Shown here piece by piece: positions 6,471-44,184 of a stretch of DNA of 64,000 bases (its first letter is position 1; each line of letters begins with the position of its first letter). The DNA is from an uncultured Pseudomonadota bacterium (GTDB taxonomy: Bacteria; Pseudomonadota; Gammaproteobacteria; Methylococcales; Methylomonadaceae), in assembly GCA_903928965.1 (NCBI GenBank), contig CAIYSZ010000057.1:35935-99934 (forward strand), read 5' to 3'. The position numbers were made by a program, and so were the translations under genes. Below the pieces are notes generated by a model. It saw only the letters and a list, made by a program, of their open reading frames with translations, was not told where the DNA came from and did no database searches.

Positions 6471-8873
6471 ATGACCCAGTATATTGTTTCAGGCGTGGCT
6501 AGCGCCCATTTAGTATTGAGTAACGGCGATTCCGAAATCGTCGAGAACAAAGGACATGGAAATTGGACCACGGTTTTCGGCGGCGGTACGGTCGAGGTTT
6601 ATGCCCGCGGCGCAACCACTGAAACGGATTTGAAATCCGGCGGTAAGGAATTGGTTTTTAGCGATGGAGGCGCGCTTAAAACGATTATATCCCGAGGCGG
6701 TATAGAGACCGTTTTTGGCGGCGGCACGGATATTTCCGCCAGCATAGGCAGCGGCGGCGAGCTGGTTGTCTCTTCCGGCGGGCTCGCTGAATACACTATC
6801 TTATCCTACGGCGGCCAGGAATATGTGCACAGCGGCGCAAGCGTTCTCAGCTCTATAATTGATCAGGGCGGCGACGAAATTTTATACAGCGGGGCGACCG
6901 TTTCCGGCGATATCGTCAACAGCGTAGCGGCGCTTAATGTTGGCGCGGGGGCAAGCGCTAACAGCGTATTGGTTGAATCCGGTGGTTTGTTGCAGGTTAA
7001 TTCGGGCGGCGTCGTCAGCGGCAGTTTAGTGAGCGGTCAGGAAACCATTATCTCCGGCGGCCAAGGTTATAACGATAGCGCCAGTTGGGATGGTGAGATT
7101 CTGGTCAATGGCGGCGTGGAGCGCGTAACCCCCAAAAATAGTGCGACAGGCGTTAGCTTGATTAGCGGCGGCCATGAAGTTATTAGTTCAGGTGGTTTCT
7201 CTTTCGACACTACGGTTAACAGCGCCGGTTTGTTGACGGTTTCCAGCGGCGCGGCCGATTACAACACATTATTGAATCAAGGCGGCTCGGAAATCGTCTC
7301 CAGCGGCGGGGCGTCTTGGTATGCCCTGGTTTATGGCGGTCAAATAACCATTCAATCCGGGGGTAAATTTGAACGCGGCGCGCTTAGCGGTGCAACTATG
7401 GATGTGTATAGGGGTGCGATAGTGTCGTTTACCGCTCTTAGCAATGGTGGCGGCGAAATCATCCACTCCGGCGCCGTGGCATATTCAAACACGGTGTTTA
7501 GCGGCGCTTCGGTTACGGTGCTGTCCGGCGGCGAGGATCATGGCGGCTGGGTTTATAGTGGCGGTTCCTTGCTTATTTCATCCGGCGGCGTCGGTTACAA
7601 CGATGGGGCCTATGCTTTCGGAGGCGTTATAGTTCTTGGGGGAACGGAGCGCGTGTACCAGGGCCAAGTGGATTATGTAACCCTGAGCAGCGGCGGAGTC
7701 ATGCTGGTTAGCGGGCGTGGCGAGGCGCAAGACACCACGGTTAATAACGGCGGCACGCTCTATATTTCCAGCGGCGGCTCGGATTATGCTTCAACATTGA
7801 ATAGCGGCGGCAAGGAAATTTTGTTTAGCGGCGCCAGCGGGAATGAAACCGTCTTGAATAGCGGCGCGAACCTAATTATTGATTCCGGGGCGGTTCTCAA
7901 TTATAGCGACGTGAATAGCGGTTGTACGTTGTTCGTGCATAACGGCGCCGATGTCAGCCTTACCAGAATCAACAGTGGCGCTAAGGAAGTCGTGCTGAGC
8001 GGCGGAACCGGGTTTGGGGATTATATAGCCAGTGGCGGTATGGAAACCGTGTCTTCCGGCGGGGTGGTCAGCTTCAGTCATGTTTACTCGGGAGGCCAGG
8101 AGTTTATCAATTCCGGCGGGGAGGGTTACAACGGTTACGCTTTTGTTCCGGGCGGGATACAGGTCAACAGCGGCGGCGTCGAATACGCCTCTAATGGCGC
8201 TTCTACCGAGCAGGTGATTTTGAATAGCGGCGGAGCTGAGTATATTCTGAGCAACGCGCAAGGTTTAAGTACCACCATAAACAGCGGCGGCGCGGAATAT
8301 GTAGCCAGCGGCGGCTTTTCCATAGGCGCAAGCCTTTATCAAGGCGGCCGGGAATTTATCGCCAGCGGCGCTTATTCGGTATCCGATCAGATTTATAGCG
8401 GGGCGGTGTTGAATGTCGGTTCCGGCGCTGTCTCCCAGGATACCGTGATCTATAGCGGCGGTTTGGAAACTATTTCCGCGGGCGGATTAGGGTTTTACTA
8501 CTCGGTTTCTCCCGGCGGCGAAGTGGATGTGTTAAGCGGGGGACGGTTAGATATATTCGATTCCGCCGGTGGAGTTACCGTAAGCCCAGGCGCGGTCTTG
8601 GATTTTTCGTGGGCTTATAGCGCAACCGACGTCAGCTTAACTTCCGCTAATCAACTTCAAGTCATCAGCGGCGGTGAAGTGCTCGCCTCGGTAAATCTGA
8701 TTGGCAATACGGCCGGTTACACTTTCACAGCCTATTCCGACGGCTATATCGGAACCGATGTGCTGGTTGGCCTTGGGCCGGCCGCTGCTCCGGCGGCTTT
8801 AATCGGACCTTCGCCCGCCGGCGGGCAGCAAGATATCGCGTTGGTCGGCGTGCACGCTTTGTCGCTGGCCTAA
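6471..8873 (+). CDS. AIDA-type (strand-loop-strand) repeat surface protein
   Basis: The 800-residue protein is built almost wholly of about 20-residue repeats of the type GG.E.V.SGG......V.SGG, spanning residues 40 to 720. This is the passenger repeat of AIDA-like autotransporters, which folds as a beta-solenoid. A short end domain (VISGGEVLASVNLIGNTAGY onward) and an Ala/Pro tail follow. There is no Sec signal peptide and no C-terminal beta-barrel translocator, so it is not a classical autotransporter. Repeat proteins of this form without a barrel are usually thought to leave by type I secretion, and such a system lies at 49-53.4 kb; the link is inference. AAGGAG sits 7 bases before the ATG. 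An AraC-type gene is convergent with it. Confidence 0.85.
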   Translation: MTQYIVSGVASAHLVLSNGDSEIVENKGHGNWTTVFGGGTVEVYARGATTETDLKSGGKELVFSDGGALKTIISRGGIETVFGGGTDISASIGSGGELVVSSGGLAEYTILSYGGQEYVHSGASVLSSIIDQGGDEILYSGATVSGDIVNSVAALNVGAGASANSVLVESGGLLQVNSGGVVSGSLVSGQETIISGGQGYNDSASWDGEILVNGGVERVTPKNSATGVSLISGGHEVISSGGFSFDTTVNSAGLLTVSSGAADYNTLLNQGGSEIVSSGGASWYALVYGGQITIQSGGKFERGALSGATMDVYRGAIVSFTALSNGGGEIIHSGAVAYSNTVFSGASVTVLSGGEDHGGWVYSGGSLLISSGGVGYNDGAYAFGGVIVLGGTERVYQGQVDYVTLSSGGVMLVSGRGEAQDTTVNNGGTLYISSGGSDYASTLNSGGKEILFSGASGNETVLNSGANLIIDSGAVLNYSDVNSGCTLFVHNGADVSLTRINSGAKEVVLSGGTGFGDYIASGGMETVSSGGVVSFSHVYSGGQEFINSGGEGYNGYAFVPGGIQVNSGGVEYASNGASTEQVILNSGGAEYILSNAQGLSTTINSGGAEYVASGGFSIGASLYQGGREFIASGAYSVSDQIYSGAVLNVGSGAVSQDTVIYSGGLETISAGGLGFYYSVSPGGEVDVLSGGRLDIFDSAGGVTVSPGAVLDFSWAYSATDVSLTSANQLQVISGGEVLASVNLIGNTAGYTFTAYSDGYIGTDVLVGLGPAAAPAALIGPSPAGGQQDIALVGVHALSLA

Positions 8874-8886
8874 GCCGGATTTAGCG

Positions 8887-8926
8887 GCGGACGATCAAGA
8901 CTGGAATTATTCGGCTTGATCGCCGC
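8887..8926. terminator. Hairpin between convergent genes
   Basis: GCGGACGATCAAG (8887-8899) pairs with CTTGATCGCCGC (8915-8926) with one bulged A and a 15-base loop. It spans the stop of the AraC gene and follows the repeat-protein gene. There is no T run, so it may be a weak bidirectional terminator or only a protective hairpin. Confidence 0.4.
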
Positions 8927-9866
8927 CGGTTTGTTGAAATGCTCCGGTTTGCATTCGTTTGGGCGTGACGCCGTAATACCGTGTAAATGCGGCGGTAAAA
9001 TTATTCGGGTGCCGATACCCCAACTCCCAGGCGATTTGGTTGATTTGCAGATTGCCATATTGCAGTAAGTGGCGGGCGCGTTGCATTTTATATGCGTTCA
9101 ATACTCCGTAGGGCGTGTTGCCGAAGTAGTGGTGAAACAAAAGCTTCAGCTTTTGCGGGTTGACGCCGACGCGTTTACTGAGTTCGGCGACGCCCGGCGG
9201 GTTGGCGTATTCGCTGATCAAGATATCGCGCGCGGTTTCGGCAATCGCCCGCTGGCCGGGGGAAATGGGATGTCCGGCCCGCGGCCGCGGCGTCAGGCGC
9301 TCTAATTCCGTCGCCACGATCAGCAAGGCTTGCCCGTGCATGCGGGCTAGGTCCAACGGGCGGTTAGGGTCTAGCCGCGCCAGTTCAGATGCGGCGGCCA
9401 GGGTCTGCGCGCCAATTTTCCACCCCTCTAATATTTGCGGCGCGGCTGCTCGCCAAATCCTAGCTTCCGGCGCCACGCAGCCATGATTTTCAAGCCAGCT
9501 GGGAGTGACGATGAAGCGCAGTTGACGCAGATTTTCCGCCGCCGCGTATTGGCGTTCGCCTTGGCTGCCGCGGAACGCGGTGAGCGTGGCGTGGCCGGCT
9601 TTGAACGCCATCTCGCAGCTTGGACCTATAAAACTCGATTTGCCGCTTAAAGCTAGAGTTAGCACGATTTTAGGCTCGTCATCGCTAAAGCGGTTGGCGA
9701 CGCTGAATGCCTGACGGCTGACGTAACAAGTATCGATATAGCTAAAGCCGGGCTCGAAAGGGTAGCTGGCTGATTCGCCGGAACCGCAGGCCGCGGGCAA
9801 ACGCAAGATTTGGGCCGGTCCACGGCCGGGTTGCGGTATCAGATTTTCTTGACTAATGCGGTACAT
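8907..9866 (-). CDS. AraC/XylS-family transcriptional regulator
   Basis: The 319-residue protein has an N-terminal sensing domain of about 200 residues and a C-terminal double helix-turn-helix. First helices: PPGVAELSKRVGVNPQKLKLLF; second: INQIAWELGYRHPNNFTAAFTRYYGVTP, the AraC signature. The layout (KLKLLFHHYFGNTPYGVL) is closest to PchR-like regulators, which respond to siderophores, but the N-terminal domain here gives no clear ligand. It converges on the AIDA-repeat gene and is divergent from the two small exported proteins at 10.1 and 10.6 kb. Either could be a target. Confidence 0.85.
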   Translation of the reverse strand: MYRISQENLIPQPGRGPAQILRLPAACGSGESASYPFEPGFSYIDTCYVSRQAFSVANRFSDDEPKIVLTLALSGKSSFIGPSCEMAFKAGHATLTAFRGSQGERQYAAAENLRQLRFIVTPSWLENHGCVAPEARIWRAAAPQILEGWKIGAQTLAAASELARLDPNRPLDLARMHGQALLIVATELERLTPRPRAGHPISPGQRAIAETARDILISEYANPPGVAELSKRVGVNPQKLKLLFHHYFGNTPYGVLNAYKMQRARHLLQYGNLQINQIAWELGYRHPNNFTAAFTRYYGVTPKRMQTGAFQQTGGDQAE

Positions 9867-10086
9867 CCCTTGGACTCCCTGTTTTCGGGTGGCGTAGGTT
9901 TCTTACGCTAATAGCGGCGCGTACTACCCGTGCGGCAAATAACATAGTAATTTTTTTGTCATAGCAAATAGTACCTGATGCATAGTTTTTTGCAAGGCAA
10001 GGCCGGGATGCCGGCTTTATGATTATCGCCAGCCCGCCGTTTCGGCCGGTGTTTTGAATACTTATAACGATAAAGGAGTGTTAATC

Positions 10087-10545
10087 ATGAAAAAAATTAT
10101 GTTATTGAGCGGCTTGGCCTATTTGGCGCCGGGATTGGCGGCCGCGGCGGTGACGCCTTGCATGCAATCCGATATGAACGGCAATTATGTGATGTATCAA
10201 AACAGCGTGGCGCTGGCTAATTTGCATGTCGGCCGGTGTGAGGTAAACGTCAGAAACGGCGTGGCCGAAGGAAGCTGCGATTTCACCACCACTGCCAATG
10301 GCGAAATAAAGCAGGGTTTTAACGGCGCGGTGAGCGGAACGGCCAGCATCAACGTCAATTGTTCGGCCTCCATGACCCTGGATTTTAATCCGGCGCCGGG
10401 CGTGACTGTAATATCCACCTTCAATATGCAATTTAGCCCGGACAAACAATCCTTTGTTGGCTTATGGACCAATAACTTCGGTTTGCTAGGAACTTCCGCC
10501 GGCACGCGCTATTCGCCGTTGTTGCCTGATACCACGGCGCCTTAA
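10087..10545 (+). CDS. Small exported protein of unknown function
   Basis: The start at 10087 is chosen because AAGGAG lies 9 bases upstream and the protein then opens with a signal peptide (MKKIMLLSGLAYLAPGLAAA). The track's 10054 start adds 11 residues ahead of it. The mature part (about 130 residues) has three or four cysteines (TPCMQ, GRCEVNV, GSCDF, NVNCSA), probably disulfide-bonded. Its alternating pattern (NGNYVMYQNSVAL, QGFNGAVSGTASINVNC) suggests a beta-barrel or beta-sandwich. I do not recognise the family. The PEP-CTERM gene starts 12 bases after its stop, so the two are probably one operon. Confidence 0.7.
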   Translation: MKKIMLLSGLAYLAPGLAAAAVTPCMQSDMNGNYVMYQNSVALANLHVGRCEVNVRNGVAEGSCDFTTTANGEIKQGFNGAVSGTASINVNCSASMTLDFNPAPGVTVISTFNMQFSPDKQSFVGLWTNNFGLLGTSAGTRYSPLLPDTTAP

Positions 10546-10557
10546 GCGGGAGCTTTT

Positions 10558-11082
10558 ATGTCAAGACTAGCTATTTTATTGCTTTGCGGCCTATTGGCCG
10601 GCAACGCCCGAGCCGAATGGTACGCCTTTAGCCAAGCCGGATACGACGACGGGGCGACGTTGAGCGGCAAGTTTGAAGCCAAGGATTTAAATAACGACGG
10701 TTGGATTTCGGGATCGGTTTTTACTAATTTTGCTGAAATTCAGGATTTTTACTTTAGTTTTTCGGGTAATTCCCTGGTTCCGGCGTTTAGCGAAACGTTT
10801 GCCGATTTGTCGGTCTTGGACTACCAGCCTTCGCGTTCCGTGTTGGGCGATCAAAATCCGGAGGGCATTGCCGTGAATTGGTTCGCGGAAACCGGATTTA
10901 CCTATGTCACAGGCGCGGGGGTTAACGGGCAACAAGGGGGAGATATCATCGACTGGAGCACCGGCATGAATACGCATAGCGGGGATTTGGTTTCCGTGAG
11001 CGCGGTGCCCGAACCGGCGATTTGGTTGTTTTGGCTGGCGGGTTGGCCGGCCCTGGCGTTGCGTTTACGCCACGCGCGTTAA
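10558..11082 (+). CDS. PEP-CTERM sorting-domain protein
   Basis: The 174-residue protein has a signal peptide (MSRLAILLLCGLLAGNARA) and a middle domain with many aromatic and Gly residues. It ends in a PEP-CTERM sorting signal: VPEPAIWLFWLAGWPALAL followed by the basic tail RLRHAR (about 150-174). In bacteria with exosortase (EpsH/XrtA type), this tail directs the protein to the envelope, where it is cleaved, often in step with exopolysaccharide production. No exosortase gene is in this window. The transmembrane part is unusually rich in Trp. It sits 12 bases behind another small exported protein. The mature function is unknown. Confidence 0.82.
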   Translation: MSRLAILLLCGLLAGNARAEWYAFSQAGYDDGATLSGKFEAKDLNNDGWISGSVFTNFAEIQDFYFSFSGNSLVPAFSETFADLSVLDYQPSRSVLGDQNPEGIAVNWFAETGFTYVTGAGVNGQQGGDIIDWSTGMNTHSGDLVSVSAVPEPAIWLFWLAGWPALALRLRHAR

Positions 11083-11126
11083 CCTCTGCCTATGTGCGCC
11101 GCTACTTTCTAGCAAGGCGGCGCGCT

Positions 11127-11984
11127 TTACACCAGTCTTCCGTCCCGATAATCCCGCATTGCTTGTTCGACTTCCTCGCGGGTATTCATGACAAACGGGC
11201 CGTATTGGGCCACGGGCTCATTCAGCGGCAGCCCGGATAGCAGTAAAAAAGCGGCCGGCGCATCCGTGGCGCGGATTAATATTTGATTGCCGTCGGATAA
11301 CACGCCGGCGCTATGCACCGGCAACAGGCTTTCCGTTTCTGCCGCGCCTATTGCTAGCCAACCTTCGTATGCATAGACAAATATATTATGGTTGGTGGGT
11401 AGTGTTTGACTAAACTTGCCGCCAGCCGGCAATCTGACGTCGAGAAACAAGGGATGAACGGACACGCCTTGTATCGGCCCTTGAATCTCTTGGCCGCCGA
11501 TTAGCGCCGTGCCGGCGATAATTTTAACTTCTCCGCCCTCCGGCAGGGGGTAAGCCGGAATTTCTTCCGGCTGTATGTCTCGGTAAGCGGCCGGTTTCAT
11601 TTTCTCGCGCGCGGGCAAATTGACCCACAACTGAAATCCACGCATGCGTCCGCTTTCTTGCCGCGGCATTTCGGAATGGATAATGCCGCGTCCGGCGGTC
11701 ATCCATTGCGCCCCGCCGCTACGCAAATCGCCGCGATTGCCTAAATGGTCTTCGTGCAGCATATGCCCTTCCAACATATAGGTAACCGTCTCGAAGCCAC
11801 GGTGCGGATGCGCCGGAAAACCCGCCATATAGTCTTCCGGGTCAGCGGAGCTAAACTCGTCCAGCATTAGGAACGGATCGACGCGGGTAAAGGGACTTTG
11901 TCCCAAGCTGCGTAACAGCTTGACGCCGCCGCCGTCGGATACCGCAATCGGTTCTATTATTTGTTTTAGTACGCGCATTTTCAT
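11127..11984 (-). CDS. Pirin family protein
   Basis: This 285-residue bicupin is close to the usual pirin length. The start at 11984 follows a GAGGGGGG stretch and fits the family N-terminus (MKMRVLKQI). Pirin motifs are clear: FTRVDPFLMLDEF, the metal-binding HPHRGFETVTYMLEG with later His/Glu (QWMTAGRGIIHSE), and the C-terminal cupin (PLFLDVRLPAGGKF, VYAYEGWLAIG). Members bind iron and include quercetin 2,3-dioxygenases; the physiological substrate is usually unknown. It is a single gene, convergent with the PEP-CTERM gene. Confidence 0.92.
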   Translation of the reverse strand: MKMRVLKQIIEPIAVSDGGGVKLLRSLGQSPFTRVDPFLMLDEFSSADPEDYMAGFPAHPHRGFETVTYMLEGHMLHEDHLGNRGDLRSGGAQWMTAGRGIIHSEMPRQESGRMRGFQLWVNLPAREKMKPAAYRDIQPEEIPAYPLPEGGEVKIIAGTALIGGQEIQGPIQGVSVHPLFLDVRLPAGGKFSQTLPTNHNIFVYAYEGWLAIGAAETESLLPVHSAGVLSDGNQILIRATDAPAAFLLLSGLPLNEPVAQYGPFVMNTREEVEQAMRDYRDGRLV

Positions 11985-12102
11985 GTCAGCCCCCCTCTCA
12001 ACATAACGCAAAATCCGAAAACTAAGGCATTTCAATGCAGTCCGACGGTTCTGTCAAGTGTGCGCGTGCAAATATAAAGTGCGTTAAGGCTAGGAAAGCG
12101 GT

Positions 12103-13383
12103 TTAGAATTTACGCGACCAGCCCAAGGTTAACGAATACTGTGTCATATTGAGTGCAATATTTTGCGCCGGGTAGAGCGGGTCCGGGCCGGTGACAGTGT
12201 TGGGCGGCGAGTACATGAATGCGAAGCTGAGTTCGTCCCGGTTTGGCAGTTGGTAGCTGAAGCCGCCGTCGATATGCCATTCCTGCACCGCCGGGGCCAC
12301 GATGTTAAACAACACTTGCGAACTGGGTATCGGTTGTTTGCCGTAACTGAAACCGGCGCGCCAGGTGAGTTGGTCGTTTTGCTTCCACTGCGCGCCGATT
12401 TTGTACACGGTCATGTCTTTCCAGCCGAATCCGGCTCCGTTGCCGCTTCCAAGCTGGGTTTGACCTAGAAATAGGGATTGCGCGAGCAACGGGTTGCCGA
12501 CGGAATTGACTTCGCTGTAAAAGATTTCCTGCACGCCGAACAAGGCGGTGAAACTATTGCTGGCCGACCAAGCCAAGCCGGCGTCGAAGCTGGAAGGAAT
12601 GTCGAAACTGCCTTGTCCGGTGAACAGGCCGGCATAGTCGCTTAATTGCGACATATAAGTGCGGCTTTTGTACGCCGCGCCCAGACGCAGGCCTGGTAAT
12701 AGTTCGGCTTGCGCGCCGGCTTTGAAACCGACGCCGAACGAGTATTCGCGGCCCTGATTGGTTAAATGGGCGGGGCTGGCCGAAAATCCGGCGAAGGAGC
12801 CGAAGCCCTGCGCCTCAAAATATTCGATGGCGAGCAGGGGTGAAACGCCGATGGCGTAACGGCCGTTGGCGAAAGAACGGGCGTAGGTGGCGGCCAGAAA
12901 ACCTTGCGCCAAATCCACGCCGGTGCGGCCGGCGCAGAAGACTCCCTTGGCGCCGGGACAGGCGGAGATGCCGTTGGTGACGTGGGCATAGTCGGTATTC
13001 ATGCCGCCGTTGCCGTTCAAGGAGATGCCTACGGTTTGCGTATCGTCCAGTTTGTGGCTCCAGCCTATGGTAGGGATAACGAAATAGTTTTTATCACTGG
13101 TGTAGGTTCCTGCGCTGAGATAGCCGGGATTGTTCACGCTATATTGCCGCAACGGGCTGAAAAACTCGCCTTCTATGTCCAGGCGGTTGCCGGCGTAGGC
13201 GAGCCCGGCCGGGTTTAGCACCGCGGAAATGGCGTCTTGGGAGAAAGCCACGTCGGCCCCGGCCAATCCCTTACTGCGCGAACCGTAGGCGTTTTCAAAG
13301 TAACCGTCGGTGGCCAAGCTGTTTAGGCAGTATCCGCCTAACGATAGCGCCGCCGCGGCGAGGGTTAACTGTTTAAAATGCAT
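12103..13383 (-). CDS. OmpP1/FadL-family outer membrane channel
   Basis: The 426-residue outer-membrane beta-barrel carries a signal peptide (MHFKQLTLAAAALSLGGYCLNSLA) and the family N-terminus GYFENAYGSRSKGLAGADVA...NPAGLA. The barrel ends in the terminal strand YSLTLGWSRKF with a C-terminal Phe, as required for BAM insertion. FadL-type channels take up hydrophobic compounds such as long-chain fatty acids or aromatic hydrocarbons by lateral diffusion. The substrate here cannot be read. It is monocistronic and divergent from ileS. Confidence 0.9.
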   Translation of the reverse strand: MHFKQLTLAAAALSLGGYCLNSLATDGYFENAYGSRSKGLAGADVAFSQDAISAVLNPAGLAYAGNRLDIEGEFFSPLRQYSVNNPGYLSAGTYTSDKNYFVIPTIGWSHKLDDTQTVGISLNGNGGMNTDYAHVTNGISACPGAKGVFCAGRTGVDLAQGFLAATYARSFANGRYAIGVSPLLAIEYFEAQGFGSFAGFSASPAHLTNQGREYSFGVGFKAGAQAELLPGLRLGAAYKSRTYMSQLSDYAGLFTGQGSFDIPSSFDAGLAWSASNSFTALFGVQEIFYSEVNSVGNPLLAQSLFLGQTQLGSGNGAGFGWKDMTVYKIGAQWKQNDQLTWRAGFSYGKQPIPSSQVLFNIVAPAVQEWHIDGGFSYQLPNRDELSFAFMYSPPNTVTGPDPLYPAQNIALNMTQYSLTLGWSRKF

Positions 13384-42969: not shown

Positions 42970-43012
42970 TTGACAACGACGAATAGCCGGGAATACTTGC
43001 GTAAGCAAGTAT
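42970..43012 (+). promoter_or_regulatory. Promoter and palindromic operator of the globin-like gene
   Basis: TTGACA (42970-42975) and AATACT (42992-42997) with a 16-base spacer form a good sigma70 promoter. A perfect palindrome ATACTTGC-GTAA-GCAAGTAT (42993-43012) begins on the -10 and covers the predicted start of RNA, a typical repressor site. It is not the FNR/NnrR pattern TTGAT-N4-ATCAA. Confidence 0.6.
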
Positions 43013-43038
43013 AAAATAATAACTACCTGGAGAAATTT

Positions 43039-43584
43039 ATGTCAAACCTAGCATTGACCTATCCGCAATTGGCCGCTTGGCTGTACGGCGAAGAACCGGC
43101 CGCCTTGGCCGTCGCCAAGGATTTTTGCTCGCGCATGCGCGAGGACTATCGCATTAACCGGTTTTTTAACGATAAATCCGTGGACGAACATGCCGCCGCA
43201 TTATTCGCCCCGATCAAGGCGTTGTTAGCGTCTCAGTCGCCAAGCGCAGAGGAATTGCATGCCTTGGTCAACGATTATTTCACCGCCGCGTTTGCCCGTC
43301 ACAATCGTTCACCTAGTCTGGTGACCGGGAATGATTTCGCGTTTTTGTTGGACATAGCCGGCGGCAAGGATATGCGGGAAATCATTCCTTTATGCGAGTC
43401 CCATGCCTGGCTGATTAAATTAATACCCGACGATGATCATTTCGACGCGGCGATGGAACATTTGGCCGCCAGCATGGTTAAAGCCGGCGTCCCGGAATCC
43501 TTGCGCCGGCAGATACTGGATTTCGCCGAGCGCGGGCGTGACGCGGTGCTGGCGCGCGGCCCGTCGGCTTTGCAAGCCGCTTGA
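43039..43584 (+). CDS. Divergent truncated-haemoglobin-like protein
   Basis: The 181-residue protein resembles group I truncated haemoglobins at both ends: CSRMREDYRINRFF near the N-terminus (about 30-43), then GKDMREIIPLCESHAWL (about 112-128), and HFDAAMEHLAASMVKAGVPE (about 134-153), which parallels the HFDAVVEHLxATLxxxGVP of that family. The His in CESHAW could be the proximal haem ligand. The middle (about 70-110) does not match, and the protein is longer than the usual 120 residues. Oxygen, NO or redox chemistry is therefore inference. GGAG lies 8 bases before the ATG, and a palindromic operator covers the promoter. Confidence 0.6.
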   Translation: MSNLALTYPQLAAWLYGEEPAALAVAKDFCSRMREDYRINRFFNDKSVDEHAAALFAPIKALLASQSPSAEELHALVNDYFTAAFARHNRSPSLVTGNDFAFLLDIAGGKDMREIIPLCESHAWLIKLIPDDDHFDAAMEHLAASMVKAGVPESLRRQILDFAERGRDAVLARGPSALQAA

Positions 43585-43770: not shown

Positions 43771-44184
43771 ATGATCGGTGGTGTGATAAATGTTTTAGTG
43801 GCGATTTGGGTGTACCAAACGCTGCTTAAGGTTAAATTCCCTAATTTATTGTGGTGGGTAGTGGGCGCGGCGGCTTTGTTTTTTGCGGTGGAATTTACCG
43901 TGCAACTGTTCTGCATCGAAATTATTGATGCGCTGAACGGTAAGGACATCGGCGGCGAATATGAACCCGGTTTGACCGATGTTGGCGACCGGAAAACCCA
44001 GGAAGCAGCCGGCGGCGGTATGTTCATGTCGGTGGTTTGCGAGTTGTTCCCGTCCGTGGCCGGGGTGTTGGCGGTGGCTATTTTGCGTGCGCAATTCATT
44101 CTGAAAGCGGCGCTAACCCCCGCTAATCTGTTTAGCGGCATTAAGGAAATGTTTATTAGTATCGGCAGTAGCTTTAAGCCTTAA
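43771..44184 (+). CDS. Small integral membrane protein of unknown function
   Basis: The 137-residue protein has an N-terminal helix (GGVINVLVAIWVYQTLL), a second (LWWVVGAAALFFAVEFTVQLF) and a third (FMSVVCELFPSVAGVLAVAILRAQFIL). An acidic loop lies between the second and third (NGKDIGGEYEPGLTDVGDRKTQ). I do not recognise the family. AGAGG precedes the ATG by 9 bases, and a hairpin terminator follows, so it is an independent gene. Confidence 0.75.
   Translation: MIGGVINVLVAIWVYQTLLKVKFPNLLWWVVGAAALFFAVEFTVQLFCIEIIDALNGKDIGGEYEPGLTDVGDRKTQEAAGGGMFMSVVCELFPSVAGVLAVAILRAQFILKAALTPANLFSGIKEMFISIGSSFKP

Follow-up and report, generated by a model that had tools for sequence, protein, structure and literature searches.

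In group I truncated haemoglobins (trHbN), oxygen affinity goes with the residues of the distal pocket: Gln at E7 and E11 accompanies high affinity and NO detoxification, Leu at E7, E11 or G8 accompanies low affinity, and storage or transport of O2 is the role proposed for low-affinity N subgroups, some of which carry Leu (PMC4720485). Truncated haemoglobins are believed to supply methane monooxygenase with O2 (PMC11102522), and in Methyloprofundus a group I member is a top-10 transcript, which was taken to reflect a response to NO (PMC8788690). The bacteriohemerythrin of methanotrophs, a small soluble protein that binds O2, is also connected with methane oxidation, and the hemerythrin mutant of Methylomonas LW13 showed no significant growth in an oxygen gradient (PMC11072679). 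Bacteriohemerythrin is a non-haem iron protein of a family unrelated to the globin described here, and it is used as a working analogy only. In the literature searched, no paper was found on Methylomonas globins or on truncated haemoglobins with an insert between the E and F helices. What is new here is a long truncated haemoglobin subfamily, undescribed in that literature, and the kinship of its promoter with that of pmoCAB, the operon of particulate methane monooxygenase (pMMO).

The gene was studied in a stretch of 64,000 nucleotides from a Methylomonadaceae genome, called the window below. The coding sequence of the long group I truncated haemoglobin variant occupies positions 43039-43584 of the forward strand, encodes 181 amino acids and is preceded by a Shine-Dalgarno-like TGGAG at 43028-43032, read from the sequence. 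The range given in the initial annotation starts at 42970, where the -35 hexamer begins and not the gene. Upstream lie rluD-like, pgeF-like and ZIP-transporter genes, and downstream a small membrane-protein-like ORF followed by a metH-like gene; except for ZIP, these names are presumptive, given from recognisable sequence only. The order rluD-like, pgeF-like, ZIP transporter is kept only beside the nearest orthologue (genome G117). In other species the neighbours differ, and a conserved operon partner was rejected because they vary from species to species. The membrane-protein-like ORF (137 amino acids, 43771-44184) has no counterpart beside the nearest orthologue, and its search against Pfam and NCBIfam gave no match. 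A structured RNA leader upstream of the globin was also considered and dropped, since the Rfam search gave no match.

The window protein is not named by Pfam or NCBIfam at their cut-offs. Searched alone against the PDB with phmmer it found cyanoglobins at E 3e-4, and a profile of 29 family sequences found 2ksc, a group 1 truncated haemoglobin, at E 1.3e-12, with all leading matches in the same group; only 2 of the 29 members reached Pfam Bac_globin at E<=0.01. The profile similarity falls into two blocks (profile positions 13-65 and 102-173) with an unmatched middle, in agreement with the initial annotation that both ends, but not the middle, resemble group I truncated haemoglobins, and the excess between E7 and F8 is 44 residues. 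Its statement that the protein is 50% longer also holds approximately, as 181 residues exceed the 122-134 of the short trHbN of related bacteria by about 35-50%. Structure prediction, which the same annotation had proposed, gave truncated-haemoglobin-like models. The AlphaFold2 model built from 48 sequences (pLDDT 83.6, pTM 0.78) has helices at 48-62, 70-85 (extra), 98-107, 122-126, 132-148 and 153-164; its loop at 90-97 is ill-defined. Foldseek searches of the PDB placed truncated haemoglobins in nearly all top ranks, at E-values that are all at least 0.05; for the top ones the probability is 1.00 and TM-to-target reaches 0.73. Since the best of these E-values is only 0.07, a 2-over-2 helical fold is a prediction, and the fold assignment rests on sequence and fold jointly. 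The globin fold proposed initially is supported by both blocks of sequence similarity, by the F8 His that never varies and by a pair of AlphaFold2 models, all of which suggest a truncated haemoglobin. The trHbN structures of Synechocystis, Chlamydomonas and Mycobacterium (Pfam PF01152) are the best PDB matches both by sequence and by fold, and the long globins share with them the predicted helix order, the G and H helices, the DDxRxNRFF B-C region, the CD1 Phe and the F8 His. These comparisons place the window protein, as a variant, among the group I truncated haemoglobins, and the long globin would be expected to bind haem.

Two features set the long globins apart from trHbN, an insert of 37-50 residues between E7 and F8 and a Leu at E11. 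The short trHbN of Methylococcales (122-134 amino acids) belong to the same globin group and share CD1 and F8; they have no insert, a Gln at E11 and no promoter of the pmoC type. The size of the insert follows from the E7-F8 offset: each of the 65 short trHbN from related bacteria has 27, and the 62 long proteins compared have 64-77 (71 in the window protein, hence 44 inserted residues). The direct E-to-F connection by a short chain, typical of trHbN, is absent from the window protein. The insert covers approximately residues 65-104 (43231-43350, forward strand) and carries the family motif SLVTGNDFAFLLD. Its placement is ambiguous, as HMMER treats residues 48-65 as the E helix and MAFFT also aligns the inserted YFTAAFAR to FLTMAFGG of the short proteins. 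The insert is predicted to form an extra helix (70-85) between the distal E and proximal F helices, and may serve as a docking surface.

The same 62 long and 65 short proteins were compared at the pocket positions. The letters B10, E7 and E11 come from alignment to truncated haemoglobins of known numbering and not from a structure. Phe43 at CD1 (43165-43167) and the proximal His122 at F8 (43402-43404) are invariant in all long and short sequences. At E11 the window protein has Leu55 (43201-43203), as do 62 of 62 long proteins, in place of the Gln found in 64 of 65 short ones. At B10 it has Cys30 (43126-43128), where Tyr is found in 52 of the 62 long and all 65 short proteins, and at E7 it has His51 (43189-43191), where 59 of the 62 long proteins have Gln; all these codons lie on the forward strand. 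The window protein reads Phe29-Cys30 where group I has the B9 Phe-B10 Tyr pair, and it lacks the polar Gln that the high-affinity subgroups carry at both E7 and E11. His at E7 occurs otherwise only in two near-identical proteins, L156 (G108) and L160 (G107), both of which also have Cys at B10. A long globin gene of this B10 Cys/E7 His type lies directly 5' of one that codes for a PocR-PAS-GGDEF protein (L044, G108, about 6661-9266). The short trHbN of the window species (L048, G000 contig C46, 5199-5585) is the only one of the 65 with Leu at E11 and His at E10, so that both group I globins of this species have altered distal pockets.

In a search of 311 genomes of the order, every full-length match (E at or below 2e-56) came from Methylomonadaceae, and the next class of matches, starting at E 4e-18, consisted of short trHbN or fragments. 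The full-length copy is absent from most genera of the family. Nearly all Methylomonas genomes carry a long globin, and many carry a second long paralogue. In one genome (L012, G105, 1426-1968) an in-frame TAA follows codon 61 and breaks the long globin, its relatives being intact; in another (L052, G119, 6493-12839) a long globin of the second-paralogue type lies in divergent orientation to an operon that resembles that of soluble methane monooxygenase, with a Phenol_Hydrox hydroxylase and a 2Fe-2S/FAD reductase. An alignment-based scan of contigs of 85,000 species, which used two short peptide patterns, retained 80 loci and could thus have missed distant members, gave long forms only from Methylococcales among the matches listed, including named Methylomonas strains; a single-sequence search of the same kind of genome contigs gave no match. 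As far as searched, the subfamily appears to be confined to Methylomonadaceae.

The conserved pmoC-type promoter of these globins, missed by the initial annotation, is a better clue to function. In the window it consists of a -35 TTGACA (42970-42975), a 16-nt spacer and a -10 AATACT (42992-42997), on the forward strand. The globin promoters of relatives have a common element, TTGACA-N12-CTGGAARACT, of which the window promoter is a degenerate copy, matching 14 of 16 positions of the globin consensus and two changes away from an exact TTGACA-N13-TGGNARRCT. Scored over 16 positions, 26 long globins, the window's included, reach at least 14, against a ceiling of 13 in 3,100 shuffled upstream regions and of 11 in intact short trHbN. 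The long globin of Methylomonas sp. LW13 carries the element intact. When genomes were scanned with the globin element at one mismatch, a second recurrent site appeared that had not been sought, in nine pmoC promoters; the gene was recognised by its MAATTESVKADAAEAPLLN start, which is taken to be that of PmoC. A protein search detected pmoC in 33 of 37 Methylomonas genomes, the promoter could be read in 30, and all 30 had the element, 29 of them in the form TTGACA-N13-TGGTAGACT. The exact pattern TTGACA-N13-TGGNARRCT, which was tuned on these very promoters, occurs at 56 sites in the 37 genomes, namely at 34 of pmoC type (three of them, in G000, G111 and G132, assigned via promoter similarity), 18 at long globins and 4 elsewhere, and its reversed-pattern control gave no site. 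The pmoCAB promoter of Methylomonas (TTGACA-N13-TGGNARACT) has the same spacing as that of the long globins; pmoC reads TGGTAGACT, the globins mostly TGGAARRCT, and the window copy GGGAATACT. The window species has its own pmoC-type promoter near a contig end (L221, G000 contig C15, 418-445) and a part of its pmoC is all that was detected, on contig C110, the assembly being broken at pmo. Upstream of the second paralogue in several species, a related element, TTGACTTAAGCAAATAAGCTGGTTAACT, lies close to the start codon (L176, L148, L047, L175 and L146).

Tentatively, and a little short of an even chance, we propose that the window gene encodes an O2-handling group I truncated haemoglobin with a 44-residue insert, made together with pMMO. 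The long globin of Methylomonas would be transcribed from a promoter of the unusual type of pmoCAB, and because this promoter type is common to both, globin and pMMO are probably made together. The globin would then bind and release O2 for methane oxidation as a low-affinity store, buffer or delivery protein; an O2 role of this kind seems most likely, in place of the NO-dioxygenase function that high-affinity trHbN usually have. In its favour are the Leu at E11 in every long globin and the findings cited above on residues and O2 affinity (PMC4720485), on O2 supply to methane monooxygenase (PMC11102522) and on the hemerythrin mutant (PMC11072679). Against this reading, two genes with the same promoter type need not have the same regulator, and the promoter may reflect strong expression only; most members retain Tyr at B10 and Gln at E7, and Leu at E11 alone need not mean low affinity; a full-length copy is missing from most genera of the family; and the window copy has drifted both in its promoter and at the pocket positions B10 and E7. 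At low O2, pmoCAB of LW13 cells is down by 1.26 log2 (PMC11072679), and a pmo-type promoter would therefore not make the globin hypoxia-induced. A stronger version of the O2 reading is unlikely: a family-specific globin dedicated to O2 delivery to pMMO, whose promoter, and perhaps regulator, is almost only that of pmoCAB, and whose inserted helix docks.

The main rival to O2 handling is NO detoxification, which we consider possible but doubtful. As an NO dioxygenase in nitrosative-stress defence, the oxy-haem would turn NO into nitrate and so protect copper and haem enzymes, with the NO coming from partial denitrification or ammonia co-oxidation. This is the usual role of group I truncated haemoglobins, the abundant Methyloprofundus transcript was read in the same way (PMC8788690), and the B10 Tyr and E7 Gln of most long members agree with it. 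In one genome (L046, G236, 6473-8710) the genes for a long globin, a 2Fe-2S/FAD/NAD reductase and a short trHbN adjoin on one strand, a cluster that is possibly a globin-reductase unit and that also favours NO defence. On the other hand, the E11 Gln is replaced in every one of the 62 long members, related bacteria also have short trHbN with a canonical pocket, the neighbouring genes do not include NO-responsive ones, and the globin promoter matches that of pmoC.

Less likely again is that selection on the gene has been relaxed or altered in the window species, a formerly pMMO-linked globin drifting in its promoter and at B10 and E7. The tree joins the window protein to G117 (94/86), with which it has its gene neighbourhood in common, and gives it the longest branch (1.22), a point in favour of this reading; L156 and L160, the only others with B10 Cys and E7 His, are placed elsewhere (85/89) on a branch that is also very long (1.09), and the window promoter is degenerate. 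Since both branches of this type are very long, convergence or long-branch error is possible. However, the frame is intact over 181 codons, which still encode His122, Phe43 and the SLVTGNDFAFLLD motif, and the pairing of B10 Cys with E7 His in two groups could be a functional change. Close pairs of long globins have dN/dS of 0.09-0.21, which means purifying selection; the window gene has 0.16 against L007, though with dS saturated, and against G117 the ratio was not computable because synonymous sites were saturated.

The initial annotation had drawn attention to a perfect palindrome over the -10. It is present as ATACTTGC-GTAA-GCAAGTAT at 42993-43012 of the forward strand, overlapping the -10 AATACT. 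It is also unlike FNR sites, as had been said: the FNR consensus is TTGAT-N4-ATCAA, and the palindrome has TTGC-N4-GCAA, with the distance from TTG to CAA 2 bp shorter. The pattern ATACTTGC-N4-GCAAGTAT has no other match in the window at up to three mismatches (0.18 expected) and one exact copy in the whole genome. Its rarity is modest, since the window has 20 perfect inverted repeats (arms of at least 8, spacer 0-10) and 1.9% of shuffled 110-bp upstream regions contain such a repeat. At up to three mismatches the genome has 7 near-matches against 7 for the reversed-pattern control, and the lone copy with one mismatch sits within a porin-like coding sequence, so the palindrome was rejected as a site for other genes. 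Near the globin genes of 37 Methylomonas genomes no copy with up to two mismatches was found except the window's own, and the promoters of 29 relatives contained no inverted repeat with 8-bp arms. The alignment shows a window-specific insertion of about 5 bp within the palindrome, which partly creates it. Unconserved at orthologues and unrepeated at other genes, it was rejected as a conserved operator; it is a species-specific promoter feature for which no conserved operator role was found. That the protein is a sensor or scavenger under its own dedicated repressor is very improbable, however perfect the palindrome and its position on the -10, as the site is private to the species, no regulator gene was found among the globin's neighbours in the window, and the protein, a single domain of 181 residues with no other Pfam domain above cut-off, has no transmitter domain, no globin-coupled-sensor architecture and no conserved regulatory neighbour. 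A scavenger role by itself is possible.

How pMMO is supplied with O2 in low-oxygen habitats, in competition with the cell's own oxidases, is an unsettled question. A globin with an element shared almost only with pmoCAB across the genus is a concrete candidate that can be knocked out, and the shared element offers a handle on the regulation of pmoCAB, which these bacteria express more highly than any other operon.
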